A DNA stretch of 51,992 nt, taken from the IMG/VR virus record IMGVR_UViG_3300042923_000406, positions 1 through 51,992 of that record; one strand, given 5' to 3'. This DNA is from a virus. The translations under genes and the position numbers were made by a program. Positions 1,371 to 49,441 of the stretch are shown one piece after another (positions within the stretch are counted from its first letter, which is position 1; the number at the start of each line of letters is the position of its first letter). The notes under the pieces were generated by a model. It worked only from the letters and a program-made list of their open reading frames with translations, had not been told where the DNA came from and searched no databases.

Positions 1371-3419
1371 ATGGCTACACACGACGCGTGGTATCAGCTA
1401 CCCCCTGATATGAACCAATGGCAAACTGCTATAATTGAAAACATATCTCGTAAAATACCAGAGATTCCACAATACATTGCGGGTATAGACTTCAATAAGG
1501 TTGACCCTATTGTTGGAGACGCCGATGGTCTTATGTATTTAATGGGAGGCTTAGCAGCTATACCTGTTACTGTACGGCAGAATAGATTAGCACCGCTAGA
1601 CCTAATGGTTACAAAGAACGAAGAGTTTTACCCTGTTAGCGAGGCGTTTTTACAAAAGGTATACGCTGATAACGTTATAGGAGAGACTTCAAACGCACCT
1701 GGTAGACAGGACGACCTACAAGAGGACGGACCTGCTAGGCAAATTAAGTATTATAATACCGTTGATAAAGTAAAACAGGCTAGCTACGATAAGAAGATAG
1801 AGCTTCGCAGCGCTATAGAGAAAAGTGCTAAATTACTAACCTTCTTCGATAAGCATAGACCTGAAATCCTAAGTGTTCTGTATAATGCACAACCTGATGC
1901 TGTTAAAGTTGCTAGTTCAGTAGTGCCAGAACTCGACGTACCTACCATCCACTTCCTGGCACGTGAGGGTGATGCTTACACGTTCAACTCTGATAATATT
2001 ACTACTAAGCAGGCCGCAGAGCTTATGGAAGCGTTTGGTATGACCGATGAAGAGAAAGCTTCCTTATTGCAGGGTGGACACGTATGCATGGACTACAGAG
2101 AAAAACACGCTACAGTAGTACAAGGTGGGGAAGTGTGCGGAAGTTCTTGTGGTGACTCAGGTACTAACATCGCTACAGTGTTAACACTAGATGGTGTTCC
2201 AGCAAAGGGTGTACTACACCGTATTATTGCTGGTGAGTATTCAGGTCAACTTCAACGTACCTACCACTCAGGGTATAGACATTTGTTTATAGCACCAGAC
2301 TTCCACTCTATACAGGACGATTTGTACATAGTAGACCAGACACCTGCAAAGGTAGAGGACATAGTAGCAACTATGACACCTACAGAGCCTATGATAGGGA
2401 TGTTTGGCGTAGTAGCAAGTCAGTATTCAATATCGATGCCACTACAGGTAAGCTCTGTTCAGAAGTTCGGTAAGATATGCATAATTAAAGCTTTAACACA
2501 TGAGTTAGACCCATGTGAACACACCATAGGTAGAGGCTCTAATTTCTATGTAATACCAGAGGAACGCAAGTCCCTAGCACGCAACGCAGACGATGCTATG
2601 CTTACCATGCCTGGTAGAAACTATACGCTTGGTCTTAATGGTGAAGGATGTCTAGTTATCAGCGGTGAATCCGTTAGTCATACTAATGCTGTGTACTCCT
2701 TAATGAATAAGATGGCTATGGAGTACGATGATGCAGTACGTATAGTAGATACCGCAACTCGCCAAGGAAGAGTAACGTTTAAGGTTGCCGAAGATAAGTC
2801 GGAGGATAAAAAGAAACCTGACTTCCCTGATAAAAAGGAAGAGTCCAGCGAAAAGAAGGAAGAGTCTAGCGACAAACCTAAGGATGGAGAAAAACCACCA
2901 GAAGATGACGCTAAAACTCCACCTAAAGATACGGACGCACCGCAGGGTGAGCCTCCACAGGAAGAACAGTCTGGTGACGCACCCCCAGGAGATAGACCAG
3001 TAGAGGAACAACCTCAAGATGGAGCCCCACAAGGTGAACCTATATCACCTGAACAAGCAGCAGAGGAGCAAGCTGCTGTAGACCAGCAACAGATAGCAGC
3101 AGCACAACAGCAAGGTGCAGCAGTAGAGCAAATGCCTGTACAGTCTGAGGACTTAGAGGACATAGCTAAAATAAATGACCCTACGCTAATGGACGCGTAC
3201 CTATCAGGTAAGCTTACTGACGTAAACACCGCAGGTAGAGAGCAGATGATGCAAGCATCTGACGCAATCGTTAATGGTATTAAAGCCGTAGGTAAAGTAC
3301 TATTCCTAGTTCGGTTAGGTAAAGTAGACTATGTTAAAGAGGAAGACGCTCAAATGGCTCTAAACAAGCTATCTGATGTTGCTCGGAGTATCGGTGTTGC
3401 ATCGTCACAATTAATGTAG
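1371..3419 (+). CDS. Unrecognised virion-type protein with acidic Pro/Gln-rich C-terminal region
   Basis: 682 residues; I do not recognise the family. Residues 1 to about 465 look globular, with a Cys-containing stretch around GGEVCGSSCGDSG. From about residue 470 to 600 the chain is dominated by Lys, Glu, Asp, Pro and Gln, so it is probably disordered. A shorter helical segment ends the protein. It contains several of the Lys-x-Ala motifs shared by neighbouring head proteins (KQAS, EKSA, VKVAS, FKVA). It is the first gene after a late-type promoter box and is followed within 20 nt by the next gene, so it is probably expressed with the capsid genes. A structural or morphogenesis role is inferred from position only. 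Confidence 0.75.
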   Translation: MATHDAWYQLPPDMNQWQTAIIENISRKIPEIPQYIAGIDFNKVDPIVGDADGLMYLMGGLAAIPVTVRQNRLAPLDLMVTKNEEFYPVSEAFLQKVYADNVIGETSNAPGRQDDLQEDGPARQIKYYNTVDKVKQASYDKKIELRSAIEKSAKLLTFFDKHRPEILSVLYNAQPDAVKVASSVVPELDVPTIHFLAREGDAYTFNSDNITTKQAAELMEAFGMTDEEKASLLQGGHVCMDYREKHATVVQGGEVCGSSCGDSGTNIATVLTLDGVPAKGVLHRIIAGEYSGQLQRTYHSGYRHLFIAPDFHSIQDDLYIVDQTPAKVEDIVATMTPTEPMIGMFGVVASQYSISMPLQVSSVQKFGKICIIKALTHELDPCEHTIGRGSNFYVIPEERKSLARNADDAMLTMPGRNYTLGLNGEGCLVISGESVSHTNAVYSLMNKMAMEYDDAVRIVDTATRQGRVTFKVAEDKSEDKKKPDFPDKKEESSEKKEESSDKPKDGEKPPEDDAKTPPKDTDAPQGEPPQEEQSGDAPPGDRPVEEQPQDGAPQGEPISPEQAAEEQAAVDQQQIAAAQQQGAAVEQMPVQSEDLEDIAKINDPTLMDAYLSGKLTDVNTAGREQMMQASDAIVNGIKAVGKVLFLVRLGKVDYVKEEDAQMALNKLSDVARSIGVASSQLM

Positions 3420-3435
3420 AAGGGAGGTGGCAGTC

Positions 3436-4167
3436 TTGAGTTTAATGTCACCACAACGTAGGACTATAAAACACCCTTCATGGCGAGTGTACAAGGCAGC
3501 TCAAGACTGTTCTATAGACCTCAAAGACTTTGGTTTAAAAGATATCGCAGTACATATGCCCTACACTAACAACGACGATTTAACGAACGAGCTATGTAGG
3601 GCTTTGTCAGATACAACATACCAAGACGGGTCTTATGAGATACAGTCTTGTCTAGAGCTTTTTATGAACCCTCCTGATAGACAGTTAATAGAAGCTATGC
3701 TTTTAAATAACAAGTCGTTATCCGAGGTATGTGACGTTATAGGTTGCTCTGACGTTTTTGCAATGACGTATTCTAGCCTGTTCTTCGATACATCAGTTTT
3801 TAGAAATAATGTAGAGAAGCTAGTATACGTAAAAGAAGGAACATGCGGAGACGAAGCCATACAAAAGAAAGTCGCAGTAACTAAGGGTGATGAGTACTTT
3901 AAGGCCAAACAAGGCGTACCTAGTTCTAAGTTAAACATGGATACAATACTAGCTGATACATTTGCTAAAGCGTATCTCGCTATGAACTCTAACGCTGACG
4001 TAGACGACATATCCTCACAGGAGATAGCCCAAGGATGGGGAACACTGATGCTAAAGATAGCACAGCATATGTCTAAGAATGGTGATAAAGAGGTTGGGCT
4101 AGACCAGTTGGTTATTGCGCTTCAAACAGCTTCTGCGCCTAAGCGTTCTATGGACCAACTAGATTAA
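3436..4167 (+). CDS. Hypothetical morphogenesis-region protein
   Basis: About 243 residues from a TTG start at 3436, chosen because GGGAGG lies 8-12 nt upstream. GTG 3427 overlaps that ribosome site, and ATG 3445 is a possible alternative. The sequence is mixed alpha/beta and has no motif I recognise. Part of the middle, around IEAMLLNNKSLSEVCDVIGC, could form a helix-turn-helix-like helical pair, but this is weak. It sits tightly between two other late genes and ends 15 nt before the next start. Function unknown. Confidence 0.75.
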   Translation: MSLMSPQRRTIKHPSWRVYKAAQDCSIDLKDFGLKDIAVHMPYTNNDDLTNELCRALSDTTYQDGSYEIQSCLELFMNPPDRQLIEAMLLNNKSLSEVCDVIGCSDVFAMTYSSLFFDTSVFRNNVEKLVYVKEGTCGDEAIQKKVAVTKGDEYFKAKQGVPSSKLNMDTILADTFAKAYLAMNSNADVDDISSQEIAQGWGTLMLKIAQHMSKNGDKEVGLDQLVIALQTASAPKRSMDQLD

Positions 4168-4182
4168 TATAGAGGTGATATA

Positions 4183-4908
4183 ATGGCTAGTGTTACTGAG
4201 GACTCTTTAAACTTAGCTGCACATCAGATAGTAGCTGAATTTATAGACGACAGCGTAGACCTAAACACTGGTGTCAGGAAGAAAGCGTCTGACCTAGGTT
4301 TAAATAGGGAACAGACCGCACGCCTTATAGAGCGCACTAACAGCGAGGCATTCTTAAAGGTTTTCCCTGATAAAACCGACTTTGCAGTAGCTGACCCTAG
4401 TGTAGTTCTTAGTAGCTCAGAGAAAGTTGCTAGTGCAGGTTCTGTAAATAAGACAACTTATGCTGGGTACCTAAACAGAGACCCGTATGATATATTCGGA
4501 GTAGCAAACGAAAAGACAGCTAGCTACGATACGTCAGGAAGTACATCAGCAAGAGGTAAACTCTTAGACATGGTATACAGTAGAAGTATTGAAGAAGCCT
4601 GTCGTGTAGAAAAGACTGCTAAACTTATGGAAATAGAGGCTGCACAAGCTAATCTATGGCAAATATTTAAGACAGCAGCTTATAGCGGTACACGCGTAGG
4701 TGACATGGAAGTAGAGCTACTTCTAGCTTTCCCCGATAAACCTTTCGAGGTAATTGACATGGTTGACTCTATGACTGAGAAGTTGGCTAGTTCGTTACTA
4801 GCACCAGAGATTATGGAACGTGCACAAGCAGAGAACTTCGAGCCTAACGAGGTAGTACTAGAGTCTCCTATCATAAGAGCCTTTAGAGAGGTGATGGACG
4901 TTGTTTAG
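4183..4908 (+). CDS. Hypothetical virion-type protein with repeated Lys-x-Ala motifs
   Basis: 241 residues, largely helical, starting at ATG 4183 after AGAGGTGAT. Six copies of the short motif shared by head-region proteins are spread along the chain: RKKASD, SEKVAS, NEKTAS, VEKTAK, FKTAA and TEKLAS. This spacing would fit serial processing sites or repeated contacts with a protease or scaffold, but that is inference. The 3' end overlaps the TTG start of the next gene, suggesting coupled translation. No enzyme or structural family is recognised. Confidence 0.75.
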   Translation: MASVTEDSLNLAAHQIVAEFIDDSVDLNTGVRKKASDLGLNREQTARLIERTNSEAFLKVFPDKTDFAVADPSVVLSSSEKVASAGSVNKTTYAGYLNRDPYDIFGVANEKTASYDTSGSTSARGKLLDMVYSRSIEEACRVEKTAKLMEIEAAQANLWQIFKTAAYSGTRVGDMEVELLLAFPDKPFEVIDMVDSMTEKLASSLLAPEIMERAQAENFEPNEVVLESPIIRAFREVMDVV

Positions 4909-5626
4909 TAAGGAAGCTGACCTAAACCGTATAGAGCCCAATAAGCCTGTGATACCTAAGAGCCCAGTTTCGGGTATGAATACAAAAACAGTAGGGAGGG
5001 TGGCACCTTTGGAACCAATTAAACAAGAAGTAGTTAAACAAGCAGCAGAGAAAGCCTCTGTTGAGAAGGTAGCGGCAGAAAAAACAGCCTCAACTCTAGG
5101 TAGCTTCATGGGTAGTGACGCAGCCAAGTCTTTCGTAGGTAACGTAGCAGGGGGTTTAGGTGCTGTGGCAGCAATTGGTGTCGCTAACTTGGCTAGCAGT
5201 AAGATTAATAAAATGGTATCAAGCGCAGAATATAAGCGTGCGTTAGATAAGGCTATCTCTATTAACCCTAGATTACAACAAAGACCTCGTGCAGAATTAG
5301 AGCAGTACTTTGGTTTAATTGTAGAAGCATCTCCTTCTGTAGCACGTAACCCGCTTTTAGTAGCTAATTACCTTGAGTTCTTATTAGACCATCAAGGACA
5401 GCTTAACTATACAGCGTACACTAACTTGGTTAACCTTGAAAGTCAGATACTTTCTAACAGAACTAATTCTAACCCGCTTACAGGTCAAGTACAAAAAGCC
5501 GTTGTTGACGCTTCTGTACGTGGAGCATTTGATAACTACGCTAAAGCCGATAAGCGTGACATAGAAAATAGAGCTCATCAAAAAGGCTTTGATGCAGCAG
5601 TTAGACGTTATAACATTCAACCGTAG
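4901..5626 (+). CDS. Hypothetical virion-type protein with hydrophobic Gly/Ala segment
   Basis: 241 residues from a TTG start at 4901, overlapping the previous stop. AGAGGTGAT lies about 10 nt upstream. The first 60 residues are charged and carry three packed motif copies (EKASVEKVAAEKTAS). A Gly/Ala-rich, possibly membrane-active stretch follows at about residues 75-100 (VAGGLGAVAAIGVANLAS). The rest is helical with many Asn and Gln. It resembles an internal virion or ejection protein in composition. No family is recognised. Confidence 0.7.
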   Translation: MFSKEADLNRIEPNKPVIPKSPVSGMNTKTVGRVAPLEPIKQEVVKQAAEKASVEKVAAEKTASTLGSFMGSDAAKSFVGNVAGGLGAVAAIGVANLASSKINKMVSSAEYKRALDKAISINPRLQQRPRAELEQYFGLIVEASPSVARNPLLVANYLEFLLDHQGQLNYTAYTNLVNLESQILSNRTNSNPLTGQVQKAVVDASVRGAFDNYAKADKRDIENRAHQKGFDAAVRRYNIQP

Positions 5627-5637
5627 GAGGTAATGAT

Positions 5638-5925
5638 ATGGACACAGTTACTTTGGATAACAGTGGTTTTAATAAGCTAGCTTTATGCCTTATGCTTGCC
5701 TACGACACTCCTGTAGGCGACAGAGCATGGCAGACAAAAACAGCCTGCGAATCTCCGCAAGGTCTAGACGAAGCGTTCCTAGCAGGTTTTTATGGCGGTA
5801 TGCTTCCTAAACAGGCATCCGACAACGAAACATACATACTAGGTTCTGAGTTAGGCAAGGAGTTAGGTATTAACATTCTGTATAACATGAAAGAATCGTT
5901 AAGAGATTTAACTCAGGCTATATAA
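5638..5925 (+). CDS. Small hypothetical protein preceding the prohead protease
   Basis: 95 residues with ATG 5638 after GGAGGTAATGAT. Two head-region motifs are visible (TKTAC near residue 38 and PKQAS near residue 60). It stops 15 nt before the protease start, with the protease ribosome site in the gap. Its place immediately upstream of the protease gene suggests a morphogenesis or core role. No family is recognised. Confidence 0.7.
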   Translation: MDTVTLDNSGFNKLALCLMLAYDTPVGDRAWQTKTACESPQGLDEAFLAGFYGGMLPKQASDNETYILGSELGKELGINILYNMKESLRDLTQAI

Positions 5926-5940
5926 TAGGAGGTTTCAGCT

Positions 5941-7836
5941 ATGCTAGGTAAAATACATGACCTAGGAGCTTACCTCGAAGATACGGGTGAGGTCAGGGTA
6001 AAAATAGCTAATATGAATGAGATAGAACAGTTCATGCAAGGCTTTACCCCTGACCCCGCTTTTATGTATCTCCATGTTATTGCTATGGGAGCAGGCGAGT
6101 TCTACGGTTGTAACAAAAACGGCGATTATTTCCCAGACAAGTCGTTAGCAATGTATCACCATACGTTTGAACAAAACGCTAAGGTATTCAAAGAACACGA
6201 CAATAAACCTACAAGCCCAGACTATGGTAAAGTAGCTAAGTCTTGGTACAATACTACGATGCACAGAGTAGAGTTAGTATTAGCCGTTGACCGTAAGAAA
6301 GCACCAGATATCGTAGCTAAAATGGATAGAGGAGAGCACCCAGAGGTATCTATGGGTTGCCGAGTACCACATGATGTTTGTAGTATATGCGGTAACAAAG
6401 CAGCTAAGAAAAACGAGTATTGTGAACACATACGCTTCGAAAACAAGAAGGTTTACCCTGATGGTCGTCAGGTGTATATGTTAAATATTCAACCTACGTT
6501 CTTTGACATTAGCTTCGTGTTTAGACGCGCAGATAAGATAGCATATACGTTACGTAAGGTAGCGTCAGAGTATGGTAGCTTAGACCACATATTCGACATC
6601 GAAGATAAGGTTGCTAGTGTAACAAAGAGTGTTCCTGCTGAGGCTGTAGTTAAAGTCCTTAATACTGGTATGTTTAATACTCTGGACAAACTAGACGATG
6701 CAGAGCCAGATTTACCGCCAGCTATGCTAGACAAGATGGCGCTAAGACACAGTCTTAACGATATCCTAACTAGTTTCTTACATAACTTAGTACCTATGAA
6801 ACCAAAAGAAGTAACTCGTATAATCATAGTACAAAACGGTTTACCTATGGATTCATATGAACAGGTTCTAGGCGGGGTATTGGCAGCGAAGAGAGAACAG
6901 GCTCCTACACTAGGAGAGTATAGTCCTGAAATAGGTAGATTACTCGAACCGTTTTTACAGCACCGTTCATCTTATGGGCCTCTTGTTGTTAGACGGGTAT
7001 TATCAATGGGTATACCTAAACAGGCTAATGAAGATATATTTTCAGCTCCGTATAAGGACGCACCTTACTACGACCCCGCATTTGCTAACGAACTCAACCA
7101 CTATAAGCATAACTACTCTAGTGTGCCTGTAATGTATACACCTGAAGAATACCAACGTAGACGCTACGAGTTAGCCAACAGACCACAACTACGTAAACCT
7201 CTAAACCCATTTGCTATAGGTTTAATGTTAGGTGCTATGTACGCTTCGTATAGAGGTGTAACAGGTCTGAAAAGTGCCGTTGATACTATGACATCAACTA
7301 AGGGTATACTCGGCGCTGGAGCACTAGCCCTGGCTACTGTAGGTGCTGTAAAAGGTGACGGTGTTAAACAGGCTAACTTGTTAGACAACAAACTCGTTAC
7401 ACATTTCGCAATGCCATTCGTAGGTGCTCATCTAGCGTCAGCCCATTACCGTAATAAGTATATGCGCGGCGAGGAACTGAACGGAGTACAGAAGTTCGTA
7501 GCGGAAAACCCTGATTACCTATCCGTAGCCGCACCTTTTGCGATGCACTTTGCAAGTAAAAAGTACAAAGGCTTCATAGGTAAAGTTGCTTCCCAAGAAA
7601 AGTTAGCAGATTTTGCAGATACTCTTTCACAAGCAGCATTAACAGGTATAATATTCCGTGGGAGAGGCTTATCAGGAGCTAACAACGTTGTTGACCAAAC
7701 AGTAGATACAACTCTAATGCATCAAGCGGTTAAACACCTAAATGCCCCTCAGCATTCGAATCAAACTGCTAGCCAGGTATACCCTCAAAAATTTCCTAAA
7801 CAAAATACACAATTAGGTTTTCCAGAACATAGTTAG
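5941..7836 (+). CDS. Prohead (head maturation) protease with C-terminal extension
   Basis: 631 residues. The N-terminal 160 residues fit a prohead protease. His86 in EHDNKPTSPDYGKV and Ser137 in PEVSMGCRV occupy the positions of the catalytic His and Ser of herpesvirus-like phage proteases. The Ser region runs into a cysteine cluster (CSIC at 147-150 and CEH at 161-163) that may bind zinc. The C-terminal two thirds is unusual: helices, then Gly/Ala-rich hydrophobic stretches near 440-480 and 500-560, and several Lys-x-Ala motifs (RKVAS, DKVAS, PKQA, VKQA, GKVAS). The protease could therefore cleave its own extension. Position before the scaffold-like and capsid genes supports the call; catalytic residues are inferred from pattern. 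Confidence 0.75.
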   Translation: MLGKIHDLGAYLEDTGEVRVKIANMNEIEQFMQGFTPDPAFMYLHVIAMGAGEFYGCNKNGDYFPDKSLAMYHHTFEQNAKVFKEHDNKPTSPDYGKVAKSWYNTTMHRVELVLAVDRKKAPDIVAKMDRGEHPEVSMGCRVPHDVCSICGNKAAKKNEYCEHIRFENKKVYPDGRQVYMLNIQPTFFDISFVFRRADKIAYTLRKVASEYGSLDHIFDIEDKVASVTKSVPAEAVVKVLNTGMFNTLDKLDDAEPDLPPAMLDKMALRHSLNDILTSFLHNLVPMKPKEVTRIIIVQNGLPMDSYEQVLGGVLAAKREQAPTLGEYSPEIGRLLEPFLQHRSSYGPLVVRRVLSMGIPKQANEDIFSAPYKDAPYYDPAFANELNHYKHNYSSVPVMYTPEEYQRRRYELANRPQLRKPLNPFAIGLMLGAMYASYRGVTGLKSAVDTMTSTKGILGAGALALATVGAVKGDGVKQANLLDNKLVTHFAMPFVGAHLASAHYRNKYMRGEELNGVQKFVAENPDYLSVAAPFAMHFASKKYKGFIGKVASQEKLADFADTLSQAALTGIIFRGRGLSGANNVVDQTVDTTLMHQAVKHLNAPQHSNQTASQVYPQKFPKQNTQLGFPEHS

Positions 7837-7856
7837 TAGGTATAATAGTACATAAG
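7836..7856 (+). promoter_or_regulatory. Late-type promoter box, copy 2
   Basis: GTAGGTATAATAGT followed by ACATAAG, overlapping the protease stop codon and about 35 nt before the scaffold-like gene. It is nearly identical to the boxes at 1336 and 17872, again without a recognisable -35. It would boost transcription of the capsid cluster. Confidence 0.7.
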
Positions 7857-7890
7857 TACCACTACATCTTAAAGGAAGGTGCAAAGTTCA

Positions 7891-8508
7891 ATGGATATTG
7901 CTAATATTCTAGCACGGTATCGCACAGACGCAGTAAAAACTGCTGGCGTAGAAAAAGTTGAGACTGCGGTAGAGAGTGCGGTAAAGACTGCTCACGAAAA
8001 TGGTGCGCGCGAAGCTGATAATATGATGAAAGTAGCTGCCGCTATGGGAGACGTAATCGGTAATCGTATTGCTGACATTGTGTCCTCACGTATCGCTGAA
8101 TCCTTTGGTTATGACCCTGAGGTAACAAAAACTGCTTCACTACAAGAAATTATGTACGATGCTATGTTAAGCGTAGCCGAACAAGTTAAAGTAGCAGAGC
8201 AAGTAACTGGTAACACTTTCAATGGCGCTGTGTCTACACAGAAAGCAGAAGAAGTGCAGATTCAAGAATTAGCTGCTCATCACGCTAACTTAGCTGCTCA
8301 ATCCGCCTCTGACGCAGTTCAATCCTTACAGCAAGGTGACGAACATACTGCTGCTCAAGCTATGAACACAGCTGCTAACGCTATCGAAGTTGCTAAACAA
8401 CTAGCTGGTCGTATTCCTGCTAATGCTGCTGTTGCTAACCACGTTAATGAAGCTTCCTCGATTGTATCCGAAGCCGCTAACATGGCAGCTGCACACGCAC
8501 AAGCGTAA
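7891..8508 (+). CDS. Scaffold-like Ala-rich coiled protein
   Basis: 205 residues from ATG 7891, chosen because AAGGAAGG ends 11 nt upstream; GTG 7879 lies inside that site. The protein is almost entirely helical and very rich in Ala, Glu and Gln, as expected of a capsid scaffold or core protein. It opens with densely packed motif copies (VKTAG, VEKVETA, VKTAH, MKVAA, TKTAS, VKVAE). It lies between the prohead protease and the major capsid protein, the usual position of a scaffold. The assignment rests on composition and position; no homologue is recognised by sequence. Confidence 0.65.
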   Translation: MDIANILARYRTDAVKTAGVEKVETAVESAVKTAHENGAREADNMMKVAAAMGDVIGNRIADIVSSRIAESFGYDPEVTKTASLQEIMYDAMLSVAEQVKVAEQVTGNTFNGAVSTQKAEEVQIQELAAHHANLAAQSASDAVQSLQQGDEHTAAQAMNTAANAIEVAKQLAGRIPANAAVANHVNEASSIVSEAANMAAAHAQA

Positions 8509-8520
8509 GGAGGTGTCCCT

Positions 8521-8670
8521 ATGGATACCAATAAGCTAATCGAAGACCTTGAAAAAACCGCTTCTGAGCTGGAAGCTATTGCTGATGCACCTGTTAAGCA
8601 GGCGTCAAGTACTGAGAACCACTACACGACCTTCTTGGACGGGATGGTAAAGCAGCTTGGAATCGAATAG
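8521..8670 (+). CDS. Small 49-residue head-region protein
   Basis: A short gene with a strong AAGGAGGTGTCCCT ribosome site directly before ATG 8521. The peptide is acidic and helical and carries two copies of the head-region motif (LEKTAS and VKQAS) in 49 residues. Its end overlaps the TTG start of the next gene by 14 nt. It could be a core or scaffold accessory protein; no family is recognised. Confidence 0.65.
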   Translation: MDTNKLIEDLEKTASELEAIADAPVKQASSTENHYTTFLDGMVKQLGIE

Positions 8671-9280
8671 CATAACATCCAGCTTAGATAAAGAGGCAGC
8701 ATATAAAGAGGCATTCGTAAAGGGCCTACTCGCTGGTGGTAAAACACTAGCTACTAAGTTTAATGGGTCTTATGTTATGGATGCCGTACGTAAAAGCCAC
8801 CTACAACATCTAAGGGCTGTAGCAGACGAACCGATGACCCTTCATGGCATGGCTTTGAAGGCAATGGAAGAGAATGGTGCAGTCGGTGCTAAAGCTATAC
8901 GTAACGGGGTCAATAAGGCTAGAATACTAGTCGGAGATGTCGATACAGCACTAGGCGCGATGGCTGTAGGTAAGAAAGGTATGACAGACCCTAACCATAA
9001 CAGTCTAAGGAAAACAATGTTTACCTTCCGAAAGGATAACTATAAGAAGGTAAACTTTAAGGCTCCTAACCCTGCTGACCCTAACAACCCTATTAGGAAA
9101 CATAAACTAATAAATCAAGAACGGGCAAGTATATCGGCTCCTTTGCATACTATATCAGGGATGGTAGTTCCAGGTTTAGCTATGATGAAAGGTCAGGAGC
9201 TTCTTGAGAACTACAAAAACAGGGGCAATGCAACCCCAGCACAAGGAGGTTATCCTAGTGGAGAGAGAACTACTAATTAA
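8657..9280 (+). CDS. Hypothetical head-region protein
   Basis: 207 residues if read from TTG 8657, which overlaps the preceding gene; the next in-frame ATG is about 120 nt further on. The N-terminal part contains DKEAAYKEAFVKG, a variant of the head-region motif. The chain is basic and helical, with a DPNHNSLRKT segment near the middle and a short hydrophobic stretch near residue 175. The last 23 nt overlap the next gene. No family is recognised. Confidence 0.65.
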   Translation: MESNSITSSLDKEAAYKEAFVKGLLAGGKTLATKFNGSYVMDAVRKSHLQHLRAVADEPMTLHGMALKAMEENGAVGAKAIRNGVNKARILVGDVDTALGAMAVGKKGMTDPNHNSLRKTMFTFRKDNYKKVNFKAPNPADPNNPIRKHKLINQERASISAPLHTISGMVVPGLAMMKGQELLENYKNRGNATPAQGGYPSGERTTN

Positions 9281-9560
9281 GGCAGCTGGTCTTTGCAGAC
9301 AGGCAGCTGAGAGACTCCGCGCTGGAGACACCCCTGAGAAACAAGCCTCAGAGATTGCAACAACAATGGTATCAAAAGGCTTAATACCTTCAGGGGAGCG
9401 AGAACGCTATTCACAGTATCTCCAAGCGAACCCAGAGAAAATCGCTAGTATGAAGGAAAGTATAGCATCGTTGCCTGCGAGGGTAGACGCCATAGGTGAG
9501 CTTAGCTCGATGCCTGTAAGTGGCTCAAAAGATGCAATGGATTCATTCATTTATAACTAA
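9258..9560 (+). CDS. Small helical head-region protein
   Basis: About 100 residues from GTG 9258, chosen because AAGGAGG lies 8 nt upstream. A longer frame upstream has no ribosome site and lies within the previous gene. The chain is helical and carries IKAAG, EKQAS and EKIAS motif copies. It precedes the decoration-type protein by 33 nt. Possibly a core or scaffold accessory protein; function unknown. Confidence 0.65.
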   Translation: MERELLIKAAGLCRQAAERLRAGDTPEKQASEIATTMVSKGLIPSGERERYSQYLQANPEKIASMKESIASLPARVDAIGELSSMPVSGSKDAMDSFIYN

Positions 9561-9593
9561 GTACGCTAACAGCGTTAAGGAGGACAAGCCACA

Positions 9594-10010
9594 ATGTTTA
9601 ATCTATTAAGTGGTTATGAAACTGCTAACATTAAATCCTACGCCTTCAAAACTGGTGAGGTAATTAAAGACGGCGAATGGGTGGTATTCGATACAGCAAC
9701 AGGTAAGTTGAAGAAACAAGTTGGTGCGTATGACCCTATTACTCAAGGATTGGTAATGCCAGTTTTTGGTGGGAATGACGTACGTTTTGATTCCAAGTTC
9801 ATGGGCGCAGTGAGCTGTGTAACATCTACATCGTTCAGCGGTGAAACTGATGTTGTTCAAGCTGTTACTATTAACCCTGGTGATGCTCTAACTATCCTTG
9901 ATGGTAAGCTTACCAAAGCTACAGTAGCAGAAACAACTGTTGTTGGTACCATCGTAGGATATGCAACAAGACCAAATACTAACGGCGTAATTGAATTTAT
10001 CCGCGCCTAA
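9594..10010 (+). CDS. Capsid decoration/stabilisation-type protein
   Basis: 138 residues, predicted all-beta, with the pattern of small head-stabilising proteins: a VKDGEWVVFDTATGKLKK-like hairpin opening, an acidic loop, then NPGDALTILDGKLTKA and a closing VVGTIVGYAT strand. It lies immediately upstream of the major capsid gene (24 nt gap, same operon), which is the classical decoration-protein position. It has no copies of the Lys-x-Ala motif. A clean AAGGAGG site precedes ATG 9594. Confidence 0.7.
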   Translation: MFNLLSGYETANIKSYAFKTGEVIKDGEWVVFDTATGKLKKQVGAYDPITQGLVMPVFGGNDVRFDSKFMGAVSCVTSTSFSGETDVVQAVTINPGDALTILDGKLTKATVAETTVVGTIVGYATRPNTNGVIEFIRA

Positions 10011-10034
10011 TAAATAAGGGAAGGTGTAGAACAT

Positions 10035-10949
10035 ATGTCTATTATCATGGACCAAAACCAAGCGCTTGTAGATAACCAAGCATTCCTGCACAGCCTTAAC
10101 ACTAAGGGCGTGGAAAAAGCCGCTAGTGCTATGACTGACTTTGTACGTGTAAAGATTCGTGAGGCGTCCTTTGCTCGTAAAATTTTGCCTCCTAAACCTG
10201 TTACTTCAACAGACCTTGTTCAGTCCTTAGATACTGACCAACCAATGCGTATCGTAGAAATGGATAGAATCTCCGAAGCGTATCCTGTTACATTCTTAGA
10301 GCAAGCACATCAACGTTACTACAAAGGTATCAAATTCCCAGTGTACTACCAAAAGTTCATGTCTGAGGAATTTTACAAACCTATCGAAGAAATCATGATG
10401 TACCGCGTGCCTATCAAAACATTGGTACAGGAAAACTACCTAAAAGACTTGCAAATCGCTGAGGATAAGATGTTTATCGACACCATCGATAGAATCATCG
10501 CTGACCGTGAAGCCAAACTTGCTGGTGATGCAGTGTTCACAACAAGTGGTACATTCACTCCTGCTATCTTAGCTGAGGGTATGAAGAAAATCATAAGTAA
10601 AGAGATTCCTATGGGAACCATCCTTATTAATGAACTTGACTTCGTAGACTTACTGAAATTGCAGCAAAATGCCGTTGGTTCTTCTGTAATTGAAGATATC
10701 GTAGTTAACGGTTTCAGCTACACTAAATTGCTAGGTCACACTTTCATCCGTACTACTAAGATGGACGTAGTTAAACCAGGTTCTATCTACTTGTTCACTA
10801 CTCCTGAGTTCTTAGGTGTATTTGATATCTTAACGGATGTTAAAGCTTATATCGAGCAAAAAGGTTCGCACTTACGCTTCCACTTATACGAAACTATCGG
10901 AATTTCCTTTGGTAACGTAAACGGTGTAGCTAAAATTGTACTTCAATAG
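10035..10949 (+). CDS. Major capsid protein (HK97-like fold)
   Basis: 304 residues. A helical N-terminal arm carries VEKAAS near residue 27, a possible maturation-cleavage point. The E-loop and P-domain pattern follows (FARKILPPKPVT, then a long helix around FIDTIDRIIADREAKL) and an A-domain-like ending GISFGNVNGVAKIVLQ. Length, position downstream of protease, scaffold-like and decoration genes, and smooth codon use all fit the main coat protein. The start is ATG 10035 after GGAAGGTG. A stable hairpin follows the stop. Cleavage at VEKAAS is inference. Confidence 0.8.
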   Translation: MSIIMDQNQALVDNQAFLHSLNTKGVEKAASAMTDFVRVKIREASFARKILPPKPVTSTDLVQSLDTDQPMRIVEMDRISEAYPVTFLEQAHQRYYKGIKFPVYYQKFMSEEFYKPIEEIMMYRVPIKTLVQENYLKDLQIAEDKMFIDTIDRIIADREAKLAGDAVFTTSGTFTPAILAEGMKKIISKEIPMGTILINELDFVDLLKLQQNAVGSSVIEDIVVNGFSYTKLLGHTFIRTTKMDVVKPGSIYLFTTPEFLGVFDILTDVKAYIEQKGSHLRFHLYETIGISFGNVNGVAKIVLQ

Positions 10950-10961
10950 TATAAAGTGTTA

Positions 10962-10985
10962 GAGGGGTTCCGCGTTGGACCCCTC
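10962..10985 (+). terminator. Hairpin after the capsid gene (weak terminator or mRNA stabiliser)
   Basis: A 9-bp stem (GAGGGGTTC with GGACCCCTC) and CGCGTT loop start 12 nt after the capsid stop. Only a short T run follows, so it may attenuate transcription or protect capsid mRNA rather than terminate fully. Confidence 0.55.
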
Positions 10986-11016
10986 GACCTTTAAGTAAGA
11001 AAGGACGGGTATAAAC

Positions 11017-11340
11017 ATGTTCGTAACTAATTTAGCCAACCATCCCCTCGGAGTAGACGGTATCGTCATTCTTAAACCTGGGGAAGAAAGTAGATATATC
11101 GAAGAAACCGAAGACTTGGTTAGCCGTGTTGAGCGCCTTAAAGGTGTAGGTCTAGTGACTGTAAAGTACGAAGAGGGACTAGTTAAAGACGGACTACCTA
11201 CAGAGTTAGAACCAGAAGTTAAGGTTACAGTAACACCTGAACCTGAGACAGAAGTTGTAACTGAGACTAAGGTAGTAACTACAGCCAAGGAGGAGCCTAC
11301 TGCTAAACCAAAAGCACGAGGTGTTAGAGGTGCAAAGTAA
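11017..11340 (+). CDS. Hypothetical protein with Thr/Glu/Pro-rich C-terminus
   Basis: 107 residues. The first 60 look like a small beta domain (HPLGVDGIVILKPGEES). The rest is a low-complexity Val/Thr/Glu/Pro/Lys tail ending in a basic patch. The domain start resembles short phage proteins found next to capsid genes, but I do not recognise a family. The end overlaps the GTG start of the following gene. Confidence 0.6.
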   Translation: MFVTNLANHPLGVDGIVILKPGEESRYIEETEDLVSRVERLKGVGLVTVKYEEGLVKDGLPTELEPEVKVTVTPEPETEVVTETKVVTTAKEEPTAKPKARGVRGAK

Positions 11341-11656
11341 ACTTGATAAGTATGCATCTGAGGCTTGCAGCTTAGTGCTAAAAAAACAAGCGGAAGAAGA
11401 GGCTCAGACATATGCAGGTTCAGGCTTCAAAAATGGAATTATCGGTGGTGCTACGCTCGGTGTAGCTTACCCCTTATACAACTGGGCAGCAAGAGGCGTA
11501 AAACCTGGTCTACCAAGGTCGAAAGGCTCAGTGGTAGGTGCGCTAATAAAAGGTTCTTTATCAACATCCCTACTGGGTGGTGTTGTTGGTGGTCTAGGTG
11601 GCGGAATGGTAAAACGTAAAGCGCAGCCTACACAAGAACAAAGTTACTATGTATAA
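11330..11656 (+). CDS. Small hydrophobic Gly-rich protein
   Basis: 108 residues from GTG 11330, preceded by GAGGTGTTAGAG; GTG 11321 is a possible alternative. After a charged N-terminus with DKYASEA and KKQAEEE, there are two hydrophobic Gly-rich segments (around GIIGGATLGVAYPLYNWAA and LLGGVVGGLGGG). It may associate with membranes or form helical bundles. It belongs to the run of glycine-rich proteins between capsid and neck genes. Confidence 0.6.
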   Translation: MQSKLDKYASEACSLVLKKQAEEEAQTYAGSGFKNGIIGGATLGVAYPLYNWAARGVKPGLPRSKGSVVGALIKGSLSTSLLGGVVGGLGGGMVKRKAQPTQEQSYYV

Positions 11657-11673
11657 CACGGAGGTTGACATAA

Positions 11674-12615
11674 ATGTCGCAACTACTTGAAATGGCGATG
11701 CTTGCCAAGAAGGCGGCTGCCGCAGACCCAGAGGCTAGCGACGCCGTACAACATCTTACACGCAGTCAAGCTGCTAAAATGATGGGTGCAGGTGGAGCCG
11801 CTATTGGCGCTGTTACTGGGGCAATTAGAGGTGTATCACAAGGTCCTGCTGGCGCAGTTAAAGGCGCTTTAGGTGGCGCTGTTACGGGTGGTGTTGGCTC
11901 AGCAGTAGCTGGAGCAGTACTAGGTAAAGGTGTAGAGGTTACAGATGATGCACACGAAACTGGAACTAATGTAAGTAAACGCTACGGCGAATACGTAGGT
12001 AAAGGTCTAGGCGCATTAGGCGTACTCGGTGGAGCAGCAGCTGGTGCCGTAGCAAAAGGGTTACCAGGAGCACTTGCAGGAGCAGCACTTGGTGGCGCTG
12101 CATACGGAGGTTTAGGATACGTCGGCGGGCGTGTTGGTGGTTACATGGACGGACGCGTAGGACACACAATTGTAGGTAAAACTAAGGAGGCTTCCGAAAT
12201 GATTACTATGGACGATATTCAGTTAGCTAAAACTGCTGCTGAGGAACTATACAATGAGGCTATTGCTGAGGCTAATGAAAAAATTGCTTTCGCACAAATG
12301 TTATTCAACGAAGCAAATGGTGCAGAACACGCTGTAAAAGTGGCTCAAGATAACGGCCCTGCTATTGGCGTTCCTTACATAGACCAAGTCAAAACGCCTG
12401 CTGGTGCAGCTGCTTTAGGCGCTGGCGCTGGAGTGGGCGGCGTACTTGGGTACATGAAGAACCCTAGTGCTGTAGGTGCAGTTGGTGGTGGAGTACTTGG
12501 TGCTGGTGTAGTAGCTGGTGCTGGTGCACTTAAATCATTCATTGACCAACACAGAATGGCTCGTGCACAGCAACACGCACAGCAAATGGGCAACCTAGAA
12601 CGCGCTGGACAATAA
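11674..12615 (+). CDS. Glycine-zipper membrane-active protein, probable internal virion protein
   Basis: 313 residues. Two blocks (about 35-170 and 240-290) are full of GxxxG-type glycine zippers with Ala and Val, able to pack into membrane-spanning helices. A charged helical linker with KEASE, LAKTAAEE, EKIAF and VKVAQ motifs separates them. Such proteins in phages often form part of the DNA-ejection apparatus or the cargo packed inside the head; that role is inferred. An intrinsic terminator follows at 12630. The start has a GGAGGTTGACATAA ribosome region. Confidence 0.7.
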   Translation: MSQLLEMAMLAKKAAAADPEASDAVQHLTRSQAAKMMGAGGAAIGAVTGAIRGVSQGPAGAVKGALGGAVTGGVGSAVAGAVLGKGVEVTDDAHETGTNVSKRYGEYVGKGLGALGVLGGAAAGAVAKGLPGALAGAALGGAAYGGLGYVGGRVGGYMDGRVGHTIVGKTKEASEMITMDDIQLAKTAAEELYNEAIAEANEKIAFAQMLFNEANGAEHAVKVAQDNGPAIGVPYIDQVKTPAGAAALGAGAGVGGVLGYMKNPSAVGAVGGGVLGAGVVAGAGALKSFIDQHRMARAQQHAQQMGNLERAGQ

Positions 12616-12629
12616 GATAAACAATGTAA

Positions 12630-12664
12630 AGGCCGCTGCTGGCTAATCGGCGGCGGTCTTTTTT
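12630..12664 (+). terminator. Rho-independent terminator
   Basis: A 10-bp GC-rich stem (AGGCCGCTGC with GGCGGCGGTCT, two G-T pairs) and a 10-nt loop run into TTTTTT. It follows the glycine-zipper gene. No promoter box was seen before the next gene, so read-through is probably partial. Confidence 0.85.
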
Positions 12665-12684
12665 AATATTGATTGGAGGTTGCT

Positions 12685-14502
12685 ATGGACATACAGAATT
12701 TTAGTATAAAAGTCGCTGACTTTGTAGATAGCTGGCATTACCCTTTGGATGAAGACAGACACGTAAATGCCCCACTGAAAAATCCTACACTAGGTAACGT
12801 ATTAGGTAATGCAGCCGCAGGTACTGTTATTGGCGGTGCTCTAGGTGTAGTACCAAGTATCTTCTTGGGTAATAAAGCTGTAGGATTAGGAGCATTAGCT
12901 GGCGCAGGTATTGGTGCATACGCTGGTATAGAGAGTAACAAGGCACGTAGTAAAGACCTAGAAGACCCAGAATCTGCGTACACTAGGCGCTCAAACCAAT
13001 TTAAGCATCATATACTACCAGCCTTACAACAGCAGGAGCATGAGTACATACAGGCTATAGAGGATAATGCTTATAGTCACTCACAGCATGCATACGGTGC
13101 CGCTATACAGGGTGGTATAGGTGCGATGCACGCTTATAAGTCAGTGAAGCGAGAAGATAATGGTAGGGTATCAATAGACCCATATAGTGCCGCTATAACA
13201 GCTAACATGGCACATGAAACATATAAGAAGCAACAACTTGCTAAAGCGCAGAAAGAGGAATATAATAGACGTAAGAACACACCCCAAGAGGACTTAGCTC
13301 TAGAAGAACAAGCTGTACGTGAGAGATATAGAGCACTGCACCCCGACAGACGAGAGGCTGAGTACGAAAGGGTAGTATTTGGCTCACAACCATCTAGATT
13401 AGCAAAGAGTGCTAGCATACTAGGTAAGATGACTACTTCTGGTAAGATAGTAGGCGCGGCGTCCGCGTTAGGCGCAACGGCAGGTGTAGGGTATCATTTG
13501 GGAAGAGGTGTACAGATAGTGAAGCAGTCACAGGCTAAGACAGCAGGCGTACGTGAGGCATTCAGCAAGTACTTAGCAAACCTTAAAGGTGTAAATGTCA
13601 GCTCTGCAAAAGAAAAACTTAGAACAGCTTCTGTTAAATTAGATGTAGCCAAGATAAATAATGACGCGCATAACGCCGTTTTTGGAAATGTATTTGGAGG
13701 CGCTAGACAAGGCGGTGGTGTAGCTGACCATTTTATTCGTAATATGAATAAACAACATGCTGATAACTTAGCAGGAGCTGAGCAGGCATTTAACTCAGCT
13801 AAGGGTCACTATGATAGTACATTAAATTCACACCTAAAGGCTGTAGGTGGTACCGCAGTAGGTATAGGCGCGGTAGTTGGAGGAGGAGCATATATGAACA
13901 GTAATAAAACAGAGAAGTTAGCTTCTAGGGCAGTAGAGTTAGTAAACGGTAAAACAGTTACAGATAAAGCTAAGCAATTAGTAGAGAGTGGATTCAAAGG
14001 TAAGGACTTTGCAGGAAAGAAAGCACCATACATAAACGTTAATTCTCGTAGTTTAAGTGCTAAAGCTATGGCTATTCTAGGCACAGGTGCGGCTGCATCA
14101 GGAGCTATCGCTGCATACAACGCTCACAAAGATAATAAGGCACAAGCTGAGAAAAGCGCAGGGATTGTAGAGAGAGCTAACCAGTTCTTAAATAATGATA
14201 AGCCTAAAGGAATGGACTCTGAGAAAGTAGCGAGCTTCTTATCTACAGCAGCCAAGTTTGTAACTAAGAACCCAACTAGAGCTTTAGCTACCGCAGGAGC
14301 TGGCGTAGGCGCTGTATCTGGTGCAGCCGCTGCTGGTGATGGCAACCGTGTTCAAGGTGCTATTACAGGTGGTGCAGTCGGTGGTGCTCTCGGAGCCGCT
14401 GGTGGTAAGTACATGGCTAGTAAGGCAAACCCTGACATTGGTAAGTTAAAGTCATTTGCACCTAACCAAATTGCAGCTCAGAATATGACATCTAAAGTTT
14501 AG
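12685..14502 (+). CDS. Large glycine-zipper protein, probable internal virion/ejection protein
   Basis: About 605 residues from ATG 12685 after TTGGAGGTTGCT. Hydrophobic glycine-zipper segments occur near residues 35-80, 255-275, 385-400, 460-475 and 535-580, separated by charged helical spacers. Motif copies IKVAD, AKSAS, AKTAG, EKLAS, EKSAG and EKVAS sit at the spacer-zipper borders, which is what would be expected if a protease trims the spacers. Predicted function: packaged with or within the head and inserted into the host envelope at infection. This is inferred from composition; no family is recognised. Confidence 0.7.
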   Translation: MDIQNFSIKVADFVDSWHYPLDEDRHVNAPLKNPTLGNVLGNAAAGTVIGGALGVVPSIFLGNKAVGLGALAGAGIGAYAGIESNKARSKDLEDPESAYTRRSNQFKHHILPALQQQEHEYIQAIEDNAYSHSQHAYGAAIQGGIGAMHAYKSVKREDNGRVSIDPYSAAITANMAHETYKKQQLAKAQKEEYNRRKNTPQEDLALEEQAVRERYRALHPDRREAEYERVVFGSQPSRLAKSASILGKMTTSGKIVGAASALGATAGVGYHLGRGVQIVKQSQAKTAGVREAFSKYLANLKGVNVSSAKEKLRTASVKLDVAKINNDAHNAVFGNVFGGARQGGGVADHFIRNMNKQHADNLAGAEQAFNSAKGHYDSTLNSHLKAVGGTAVGIGAVVGGGAYMNSNKTEKLASRAVELVNGKTVTDKAKQLVESGFKGKDFAGKKAPYINVNSRSLSAKAMAILGTGAAASGAIAAYNAHKDNKAQAEKSAGIVERANQFLNNDKPKGMDSEKVASFLSTAAKFVTKNPTRALATAGAGVGAVSGAAAAGDGNRVQGAITGGAVGGALGAAGGKYMASKANPDIGKLKSFAPNQIAAQNMTSKV

Positions 14503-14514
14503 GAGGATTAGCGT

Positions 14515-14928
14515 ATGCCCGTTATAACTGTAGACGATGTTCGTCTCTACCTTATGGATTTCGAAGATGTTAATATACCCCTTATGATTGAGTATCTTAG
14601 GGACGAGGATATACAGAAGTGCATAGACGAAACTGTATACGACTTTAATGAGACTCCTCCGATACTATATAGACAGTATACGCTAGAGGACTTCCCCTTT
14701 AAGAAGTTACTCCTTGATGGTGCAGTCGTAGAAGCCCTTAAGCTTACAGTGCTTAAGGAGCTTCGCGGCGAGATGCAGTACAACGATGGGGGCATAGCCT
14801 CCTCCGTGTACTATAAGAGTCCTCAGTTTACTGCACTTCGCCAAGAATACGAGCAGAAGTACGAGATAGATAAGCAGCGTCGTAAGAAGCACTTAAATAT
14901 AGAGATGTGCTACGGAGGTACAAACTAA
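14515..14928 (+). CDS. Probable head-tail connector/neck-region protein
   Basis: 137 residues, all-helical, beginning with TVDDVRLYLMDF, the layout of small connector or adaptor proteins that line up after capsid genes. The chain ends in a basic helix (KQRRKKH) and contains no Lys-x-Ala motif. It starts at ATG 14515 after AGGAGGATTAGC, and its stop overlaps the next ATG. The connector call comes from length, fold impression and position, so it is tentative. Confidence 0.55.
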   Translation: MPVITVDDVRLYLMDFEDVNIPLMIEYLRDEDIQKCIDETVYDFNETPPILYRQYTLEDFPFKKLLLDGAVVEALKLTVLKELRGEMQYNDGGIASSVYYKSPQFTALRQEYEQKYEIDKQRRKKHLNIEMCYGGTN

Positions 14929-15524
14929 TGAATTTCTTTGAAAAGGTAGCGGCATTCTCAGGTAAATATGGCTCTAAAGAGCATGAGGACTATGTAGCTA
15001 AGTGGATGCCACAACATCCCTCTTTCATACCTGGTACTGAGTACGGTATAACCGAAGACGAAGCTAGGCATTTATTTAGTAAAGACACGAAGCAGTCACA
15101 TGCTACGGCTGAGCATGCTGAGAAATACTGGAATGACATAGCCGCTAAGCAGCAGTTTAAAAAACAAGCATCTGAGTACCTAGACTTAGCCACGTACCCT
15201 AACCACGTAGTCAACGCTGCGTACAACATATACTCACAGTTACCAGAGAAAAGCGCGAGCTTAGTACTAGGTGCTATGGATAGTACTACAGACGAAAATG
15301 CTAAACTAGCGTTCGAGGTTGTCGCGGCTGTATTGATTAAACAAGCTAACCCATTAGCGGCTGTAGGTAGTGCGGTAGGTGGAGCGTTATCTAGTGCTGC
15401 TAAACACGTAGGACTACACGGAGCTTTCGGTGCTGTATCTTTGGCCCCTAAGTTAACTCAGAAAACAGACAGCATATCCCAGGGAAGTAAAGTAACGCAA
15501 CCAATGGAAGGAGTGGCACACTAA
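14928..15524 (+). CDS. Hypothetical virion-type protein with Lys-x-Ala motifs
   Basis: 198 residues from ATG 14928, overlapping the previous TAA, with CGGAGGTACAAACTA upstream. The protein opens FFEKVAAFSG and later has KKQASE, EKSAS, AKLAF and IKQAN, so it belongs to the motif-bearing group. A short hydrophobic Gly/Ala patch lies near residue 150. The ATG of the following gene overlaps its stop. No family is recognised. Confidence 0.65.
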   Translation: MNFFEKVAAFSGKYGSKEHEDYVAKWMPQHPSFIPGTEYGITEDEARHLFSKDTKQSHATAEHAEKYWNDIAAKQQFKKQASEYLDLATYPNHVVNAAYNIYSQLPEKSASLVLGAMDSTTDENAKLAFEVVAAVLIKQANPLAAVGSAVGGALSSAAKHVGLHGAFGAVSLAPKLTQKTDSISQGSKVTQPMEGVAH

Positions 15525-15910
15525 TGAGCGCTAACCTACAGATATATACGAAACCAACATGTTTACCGTCTGAGGAGCTAATAGTAGCTGGTACGGACTA
15601 CGACCTTACTATAGGGCCTAGCACTGGGTTAGACGGGGATACAGGTGACAGAGCAGACATCGTTTTATACATAAAAAACACGGGTGATAAACCTGCTATA
15701 GATATACGTCTCTCAAAGGATAACGATGTAGCGGATTTAGCTGAATTTAGGTTATCAACTGTTACAACGTATGCAAAGAACAATGTTAGTCTAGGCGACC
15801 TTCTACCTACAGAGGTTATGGCGCTATACGTACGTGTCACCGTTACTAAAGGTACGGTAGCAGCTCTTGTTGCACCTAACTTTACATTTAAGTTTAAGAG
15901 TCTACCTTAA
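15524..15910 (+). CDS. Hypothetical beta-rich structural protein
   Basis: 128 residues, predicted all-beta: alternating hydrophobic strands such as IVLYIKNTGDKPAIDIRLS and ALYVRVTVTKGT look like an immunoglobulin-type or jelly-roll domain. It starts by ATG overlap with the preceding TAA, so translation is probably coupled. A neck, tail-completion or decoration role is possible but not shown by sequence. Confidence 0.6.
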   Translation: MSANLQIYTKPTCLPSEELIVAGTDYDLTIGPSTGLDGDTGDRADIVLYIKNTGDKPAIDIRLSKDNDVADLAEFRLSTVTTYAKNNVSLGDLLPTEVMALYVRVTVTKGTVAALVAPNFTFKFKSLP

Positions 15911-15922
15911 GGAGGTGCACTT

Positions 15923-16207
15923 ATGAGTACTATTAATCCCCACCCACAGGGTTCAGTATATGGTCGCGACCCCTACTATACAACCCTATACGGGCAGGAA
16001 GCTTTAGAGGACAGACAAGTTGTAGTACACGCTAATATTAGTATCATAGGTGGCTTTAAGCGGGTAGTACACGCCAAGTACCGTATAAAGGCGAGATACA
16101 GTGGTTCAGAGGCAAGCATTGAGGACGTATACTCATACGCTACCGTAAGGTATATGATGCTCGGCTGCCTCGACGGCCCTATATTCCCACATAAAACTGA
16201 GGCGTAG
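15923..16207 (+). CDS. Hypothetical small neck/tail-region protein
   Basis: 94 residues with strong AAGGAGGTGCACTT before ATG 15923. Beta-rich, with Arg and Tyr clusters (RYRIKARYSG after FKRVVHAK). It lies in the neck gene run between connector-like and sheath genes. No recognised family. Confidence 0.6.
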   Translation: MSTINPHPQGSVYGRDPYYTTLYGQEALEDRQVVVHANISIIGGFKRVVHAKYRIKARYSGSEASIEDVYSYATVRYMMLGCLDGPIFPHKTEA

Positions 16208-16218
16208 GTGATAACTTT

Positions 16219-17875: not shown

Positions 17876-17892
17876 GTATAATAGTACGTAAG
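17872..17892 (+). promoter_or_regulatory. Late-type promoter box, copy 3 (before tail sheath)
   Basis: TTAGGTATAATAGT followed by ACGTAAG, overlapping the stop of the preceding gene and 38 nt before the sheath start. It matches the copies at 1336 and 7836 in all but two or three positions. It is placed where a separate tail transcript would begin. Confidence 0.7.
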
Positions 17893-17929
17893 GTTAATTT
17901 TTAAAATATCTAAAGGTAGGTGTACATAA

Positions 17930-19969: not shown

Positions 19970-19981
19970 GAGGAAGCACAG

Positions 19982-20239
19982 GTGTTACAGAAAATTATTG
20001 GAGCATACCAGAAAAACGTGGCTTCTATGGACTTAGTAAAGCGATTGATGAAAGACACATCAGTCGCCTCACACCTGTCTAAGTCTGACAAGTTACTTAA
20101 GATGAACCAGCACCAACAAGTACTTAGTGGTCTAGAGAACAAGCATAAAATGCTGACTGATGCGTACCATAAATATTCAGATGGTAAAAATATGGCTCGT
20201 GGTGGTATTAACGGGCTTAAGATGGCGCAGGAAATTTAG
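19982..20239 (+). CDS. Small helical tail-region protein
   Basis: 85 residues from GTG 19982 with AGGAGGAAGCACAG upstream. Entirely helical and charged, with a Gln-rich centre (KMNQHQQVLSG). It sits between sheath and the tube-like paralogues. A tail assembly chaperone or tube accessory protein is conceivable; there is no sequence support for either. Confidence 0.6.
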   Translation: MLQKIIGAYQKNVASMDLVKRLMKDTSVASHLSKSDKLLKMNQHQQVLSGLENKHKMLTDAYHKYSDGKNMARGGINGLKMAQEI

Positions 20240-20263
20240 AATAATTAAGGTAGGTGAGACACA

Positions 20264-21671: not shown

Positions 21672-21683
21672 GGATGTGATACC

Positions 21684-22925: not shown

Positions 22926-22934
22926 GAGGTAGTT

Positions 22935-49384: not shown

Positions 49385-49409
49385 ACTAATACACCTCTTA
49401 TAATTAGTA

Positions 49410-49429: not shown

Positions 49430-49441
49430 CCTTTGTTGTTA

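Follow-up and report, generated by a model that had tools for sequence, protein, structure and literature searches.

The 51,992-nucleotide virus record IMGVR_UViG_3300042923_000406, analysed over its whole length and called the window here, raises the question of why one short motif, Lys-x-Ala and often Lys-x-Ala-Ser (K-x-A(-S)), recurs in protein after protein of its head genes. A sequence-only reading had noticed the motif across the head and internal virion proteins and suggested a prohead-protease cleavage or packaging signal. The repetition is confirmed and real, running through the head proteins of the window phage and its relatives, and we consider it likely that the prohead protease of the phage itself, encoded at 5941-7836, recognises K-x-A(-S) and cuts there.

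Enrichment of the motif in head proteins

The window proteins were treated as three sets, namely 18 head proteins (4,593 residues; 1371-15524), ten tail proteins (15524-23684) and 38 minus-strand proteins, and expected counts were taken from 2000 per-protein residue shuffles that keep composition and thereby correct for Lys and Ala content. K.AS, where the dot is any residue, occurs 24 times in the head proteins against 2.3 expected, and K.A[SG] 29 times against 5.4, and neither count was reached in any of the 2000 shuffles. Copies of K.AS are found in 13 of the 18 proteins (shuffle mean 2.0, maximum 6), and the pattern is the top one of the form X.YZ, with a z of 13 against 4.8 for the runner-up. 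The tail proteins contain no copy (0.75 expected) and the minus-strand proteins six (2.8 expected), which bears out the claim that the motif is scarce in tail and replication proteins; by the terms of the sequence-only reading, a frequency just as high in replication proteins once Ala and Lys content is allowed for would have counted against it, and this is not what we observe. Because the 24 copies are spelled by 16 different codon combinations, the signal lies at the protein level, and a DNA-level repeat is ruled out as its source.

Every protein that had been named as a carrier does contain the motif, at coordinates that are right apart from small slips, although one further carrier, 11321-11656 (KYAS), had been overlooked. 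K.AS was not found in the head-region proteins starting at 3427, 8676, 9594, 11017 and 14515.

Conserved sites in the prohead protease and the capsid protein

On sequence and model grounds, the 5941-7836 product belongs to the caudoviral prohead proteases, which are assemblin-like serine proteases. It matches phrog_18299 (head maturation protease) at 7.8e-13, has tblastn matches in phages D181, Arash and G, and in BFVD its AlphaFold2 (AF2) model matches phage G gp19 (1.6e-18) and many prohead proteases, the latter from about 1e-8 downwards. H86, S137 and E111 are invariant in an alignment of 40 relatives, and the catalytic His and Ser (H86, S137) come in the order expected of assemblin-like serine proteases. 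The gene sits between the portal/scaffold genes and the capsid gene, as in caudoviral prohead protease loci, and the order protease (5941), scaffold-like (7879), capsid (10035) is identical in Arash and D181. Pfam gave no match for the protease, a PF04586 (S78) search of the record gave none, and neither did a PDB sequence search with the protease.

As the sequence-only reading had stated, the protease carries copies of the motif itself, at residues 21-24, 206-209 and 223. K21, A23, K206, V207 and A208 are each at least 90% conserved in the 40 aligned proteases, and their neighbours are variable. The AF2 model has a confident core at about residues 25-210 with the first two K-x-A sites at its edges, the C-terminal one (206-209) coming after the last strand (202-207), and among about 40 dereplicated proteases K.A lies some 30 residues ahead of the core's opening strand and recurs as soon as its final strand ends. 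Phage G gp19 keeps LEKVAS at the end of its protease domain.

The capsid protein has the Arash major capsid protein as a tblastn match (5e-34), and its AF2 model (predicted local distance difference test score 86.9) matches HK97 heads and encapsulins at about 1e-9 with Foldseek. VEKAAS is present in its N-terminal arm as had been reported, with the Lys at residue 28. K28 and A30 are each found in 61 of 62 relatives, with adjoining positions that vary, and they are two of the 12 invariant columns in 49 aligned capsids. The site directly precedes the HK97 N-arm; in the model the leader forms the first helix (7-24), a hinge follows at Gly25, and the site opens the next helix. Unlike the window capsid, phage G capsid gp27 has neither leader nor site.

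In the internal proteins, which are divergent, K.A marks the most conserved columns. The gp223-like scaffold family has seven K.A columns in which K and A reach 98-100% against a mean of 0.45, the gp220 family (63 members) has four conserved K.A columns, and the EKVAS column of the 12685-14502 protein is conserved in nine members.

Separately, residues 147-163 of the protease (window 6379-6429), just after the catalytic serine, form an invariant CxxC-x10-CxH zinc-ribbon-like insert (DVCSICGNKAAKKNEYCEH) that also occurs in phage G gp19 and the actinophage relatives. The gp223 family (L001:12487-13254, L002:12630-13439) is built of tandem modules of about 35 residues, LEKxAAVxxLxxxGxxxxxAxxLVKxAS, with K-x-A at each edge.

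Recurrence of the motif in related phages

Protein searches found distant relatives in Salmonella phage Arash, Vibrio phages D181, D148 and D69 and Bacillus phage G, and relatives by the protease alone in mycobacteriophage cluster C types, Gordonia phages and Rhodococcus phage E3. Single-sequence searches of IMG/VR gave no matches and alignments were required; alignment-based scans yielded 160 loci. The motif recurs in the related head loci: most of those in the clade have more K.A[SAG] than expected, typically at z 3-12, and a few are close to background.

In a blind gapped-triplet scan of 1,288 dereplicated plus-strand open reading frames (ORFs) from these head loci, L.K.A came top (1028 against 186 expected), and the top five also include EK.A (840 against 150) and K.AS (708 against 153). 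In this set L, M or F is preferred two before Lys, E directly before Lys, Q, V, E or T between Lys and Ala, and S, E or A after Ala, so that the consensus across related head loci sharpens to [LMF]-E-K-x-A-[SEA]. Motif density peaks in the first 30 residues of the related-locus ORFs, and in minus-strand ORFs of the same loci the motif is near expectation (19 against 14).

The Arash record marks many proteins as structural after a published virion mass spectrometry (MS) study (PMC10585845). There, [LIVMF].K.A[SAGNE] occurs 31 times in nine head proteins against 2.2 expected, twice in tail proteins against 2.0, and 14 times against 11 in proteins not annotated as structural in the record, a group that is not purely non-virion given that the MS table of the paper lists more virion proteins.

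Head proteins of Myrna (L165) and E3 (L164) have R-x-A[SAG] in place of the window's K-x-A. R.A occurs 48 times in Myrna against 29.7 expected, and Rhodococcus E3 head proteins show no significant K.A excess; the actinophage relatives may use R-x-A, which we regard as no more than a lead. Capsids related to phage G gp27 (L142-L162) have L.KYAS in an N-terminal extension, and gp27 itself (L003:19584-20432) is without both; a protease was identified in only a minority of these L.KYAS loci.

Comparison with known cleavage signals

As a control, every gapped residue pair was scanned blindly in six T4 head proteins, whose known site is [L/I]xE. I.E came first and L.E third, and the T4 tail proteins gave no comparable pair signal in the same scan. 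K.A heads the ranking for both the window and the Arash heads and comes second among phage G head proteins; in the heads of T4 and SPN3US its excess is small or absent. It occurs 72 times in the window head proteins against 35 expected, where signals with Glu at P1 give 19 against 22 (L.E), 40 against 32.5 (A.E) and 21 against 14.5 (I.E); Arash heads likewise have no clear L.E or A.E excess. The T4 signal [L/I]xE and the phiKZ/SPN3US signal AxE were thus rejected as the signal of the window, which lacks the Glu at P1.

The known proteases of this class recognise P3-x-P1 and cut behind it; a propeptide holds several such sites, the protease cleaves itself on its C-terminal side, and the SPN3US enzyme prefers Ser at P1′ (PMC10052503, PMC5694885). 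By analogy, the best explanation of K-x-A↓ is a signal in the format of T4 LxE↓ and SPN3US AxE↓ that would have a new specificity. Like the T4 gp21 signal ([L/I]-x-E↓), it is a short P3-x-P1 motif with many copies in scaffold and internal proteins and a place in an N-terminal capsid leader, which is cut in T4, but P3 is Leu or Ile and P1 is Glu in T4, whereas Lys and Ala stand there in the window phage. The two proteases have a faint profile similarity (hhalign probability 6.5, a low value) in which S137 pairs with the VSS serine of gp21; both the protease and the capsid are only distantly homologous to those of model systems. The signals of SPN3US gp245 (A-x-E↓) and phiKZ gp175 (S/A/G-x-E↓) share the P3-x-P1 layout and the preferred Ser at P1′, and their several sites per propeptide and self-cleaving protease C-terminus (PMC10052503, PMC5694885) have predicted counterparts in the window phage, but they have Glu at P1 instead of Ala. 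The N-terminus of gp245 is uncut, whereas the window protease family has a conserved N-terminal site.

Herpesvirus assemblin sites are cut at an Ala-Ser bond. They resemble the sites proposed here in that one of them, where the protease domain ends, serves for self-release, in Ala at P1 and in Ser often at P1′, and the window model has weak structural matches to human cytomegalovirus (HCMV) protease, which do not amount to a significant fold match. Their P3 is hydrophobic where the window phage has Lys, and in the window phage, unlike in herpesviruses, the predicted targets include a capsid leader of its own kind, separate from the protease, and numerous internal proteins. Phage G gp19 and the proteases of mycobacteriophage cluster C and Rhodococcus E3 are homologous to the window protease. 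No report of a K-x-A signal was found in the literature searched, most subscription journals being outside it.

Proposed mechanism and alternative explanations

K-x-A(-S) is enriched in head proteins and restricted to them, occupies conserved positions and co-occurs with the protease family. Its enrichment in head rather than tail or replication proteins, with conservation in the capsid leader and at the protease ends, would place it in the functional class of prohead-protease cleavage signals. From the sequences, we infer cleavage, the bond cut and the following order of events. Inside the assembled prohead, the protease would free itself first by cutting at the K-x-A sites that flank its catalytic domain on either side; next it would remove the capsid leader of about 30 residues at K28-A-A30↓S31 and cut the scaffold-like and internal proteins at many sites, allowing the head to mature and fill with DNA. 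Lys would be P3, Ala P1 and a small residue, preferably Ser, P1′, with a hydrophobic P5 and Glu at P4 probably helping.

Several observations weigh against cleavage. SPN3US, taken as a second positive control, showed a weak excess (A.E 31 against 23, there being fewer sites), so that the scan can miss sparse signals. Matches of the protease model to PDB structures are not significant (HCMV protease at E 0.18-0.29, the match at 0.18 having a probability of 0.63), and AlphaFold places the capsid K-x-A within a predicted helix (26-44), just past the Gly25 hinge. The motif-dense Arash proteins gp220, gp223 and gp242 are still detectable in virions, gp242 abundantly, which implies that not every site need be cut and that products may stay inside. 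The Arash proteome paper (PMC10585845) makes no mention of a protease or processing, and no cleavage data for this phage clade were found in the literature searched. That paper gives coverage alone and names no deposited peptide data, and its coverage values are unusable as a test of cleavage because they stand at 100% even for proteins detected by two unique peptides; the 86.64% given for the major capsid protein would fit the loss of the leader but proves nothing. Trypsin cuts two residues away from the site, so routine tryptic proteomics would miss K-x-A cleavage.

The sequence-only reading had left cleavage and packaging side by side, and these have fared differently, with cleavage gaining strong positional support from the protease ends, the capsid leader and the scaffold-like proteins and packaging becoming less supported. 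The RNA polymerase (RNAP) beta′ subunit gp216, sigma factor gp10, helicase gp217 and portal gp204 of Arash are virion proteins by MS (PMC10585845), and a hydrophobic-x-K-x-A-small motif was not found in any of the four, which makes a tag required for packaging unlikely and weakens a general packaging tag. The same four proteins, being packaged without the motif, show that incorporation does not need it, and so argue against an uncut docking or targeting tag by which internal proteins bind the protease, the scaffold or the inner shell and thereby enter the prohead core. The many copies per protein, the density peak in the first 30 residues, the persistence of motif-rich proteins in virions and the part that T4 propeptides also play in core targeting (PMC10052503) speak for such a tag, but sites at the protease domain ends and directly before the capsid N-arm suit cutting better, and only K and A are conserved while the neighbours are free. 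We therefore think an uncut tag improbable; a docking role alongside cleavage may exist. Arash virions, it may be added, hold both RNAP beta and beta′ subunits, and gp206 is their most abundant protein by spectra.

The motif might instead start or cap a helix in the scaffold repeat described above for the gp223 family, duplicated among head proteins. Its place at both edges of the helical modules of gp223-like scaffolds and the predicted helix at the capsid site fit this explanation, but the motif also ends a beta strand in the protease and occurs in non-homologous Gly/Ala-rich proteins, the preference for Ser after Ala and the invariant K and A follow no helix-cap rules, and T4's helical scaffold proteins are without it, so that we give this explanation very little weight. 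Chance in Lys/Ala-rich proteins has in its favor the high Ala content of the head proteins (11.5%), but composition-keeping shuffles never reach the observed count and the excess is repeated independently in relatives; a composition artefact is thereby refuted, and its likelihood is close to nil.

Features and other genes of the window

The plus strand carries head genes and then tail genes to about 23.7 kb, and the minus strand carries replication and other genes and 15 tRNAs. The head block comprises a helicase fragment (3-1328), genes starting at 1371, 3427, 4183, 4901 and 5638, the protease (5941-7836), genes starting at 7879/7891, 8521, 8676, 9258 and 9594, the capsid gene (10035-10949), and genes starting at 11017, 11321, 11674, 12685, 14515 and 14928. 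A profile search found no homologue of the 7879-8508 scaffold-like protein, and the 9258-9560 product has a weak blastp match to Arash gp225 (0.06).

Motif-bearing proteins and candidate cleavage sites in the window (↓, predicted bond)
Feature	Position	Strand	Motif or site	Assignment or basis
Homologue of Arash gp218 (virion protein by MS)	1371..3419	+	VKQAS, VKVAS	Gene order and family
Internal head protein, Arash gp220 homologue	4183..4908	+	Four K.AS, one K.AA	blastp 1e-8
Internal head protein (seeded with Arash gp221)	4901..5626	+	VEKVAA, AEKTAS	
95-residue protein	5638..5925	+	PKQAS	
Prohead protease precursor, 631 residues	5941..7836	+		Catalytic domain about residues 24-208
Protease N-terminal site, residues 21-24	6001..6012	+	KIA↓N	Predicted propeptide cut
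Protease C-terminal site, residues 206-209	6556..6567	+	KVA↓S	Predicted self-release site
Extra protease tail site, residue 223	6607..6618	+	KVA↓S	K-x-A motif
Scaffold-like protein after protease, Arash gp223 position	7879..8508	+	KTAG, KVAA, KTAS, KVAE	Gene order
49-residue protein	8521..8670	+	LEKTAS, VKQAS	
Small protein before decoration and capsid genes, Arash gp225 position	9258..9560	+	EKQAS, EKIAS	Gene order
Major capsid protein, HK97 fold, N-terminal leader of about 30 residues	10035..10949	+		phrog_2522, 6.5e-11
Capsid site, residues 28-31	10116..10127	+	KAA↓S	Predicted leader removal
111-residue protein	11321..11656	+	DKYAS	
Gly/Ala-rich internal protein	11674..12615	+	KEAS, KTAA and others	
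Large Gly/Ala-rich protein	12685..14502	+	KSAS, KTAG, EKLAS, EKSAG, EKVAS	
Protein beginning MNFFEKVAAFSG	14928..15524	+	KQAS, EKSAS	

The helicase fragment is of the SNF2 type, stands in the position of Arash gp217 (a virion protein by MS) and is probably an injected enzyme. On the minus strand, one tRNA of the phage tRNA cluster (44959-45034) is given a four-base anticodon (agac) by ARAGORN; 47305-48288 encodes a radical-SAM-like protein (CNAKCSFCFAG) with a tail rich in Cys, Ser and Gly; and 48656-50804 holds adjoining genes that by eye resemble those for a TerC membrane protein, a VWA-domain protein and a TerD-type tellurium-resistance protein.

Implications

To our knowledge, very few phage prohead proteases have known cleavage signals, and in each large myovirus of this comparison (T4, phiKZ, 201phi2-1 and SPN3US) the signal ends in Glu. 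We lean towards the broader view that a widespread clade of phages of about 130-210 kb has a prohead protease whose specificity, basic-x-Ala↓Ser/Ala/Glu, is new, and that the clade has diverged relatives in phage G and the actinophages. If this is true, K-x-A would be a third recognition class beside the T4- and phiKZ-type signals with Glu at P1, widening the known range of specificity, and would form a bridge between the P3-x-P1 signals of phages and the Ala-Ser bond of herpesviruses, so that a link between phage and herpesvirus maturation becomes testable. Cleaved head proteins could then be annotated from sequence alone, and mature termini would become predictable for dozens of uncharacterised virion proteins in many environmental phages.

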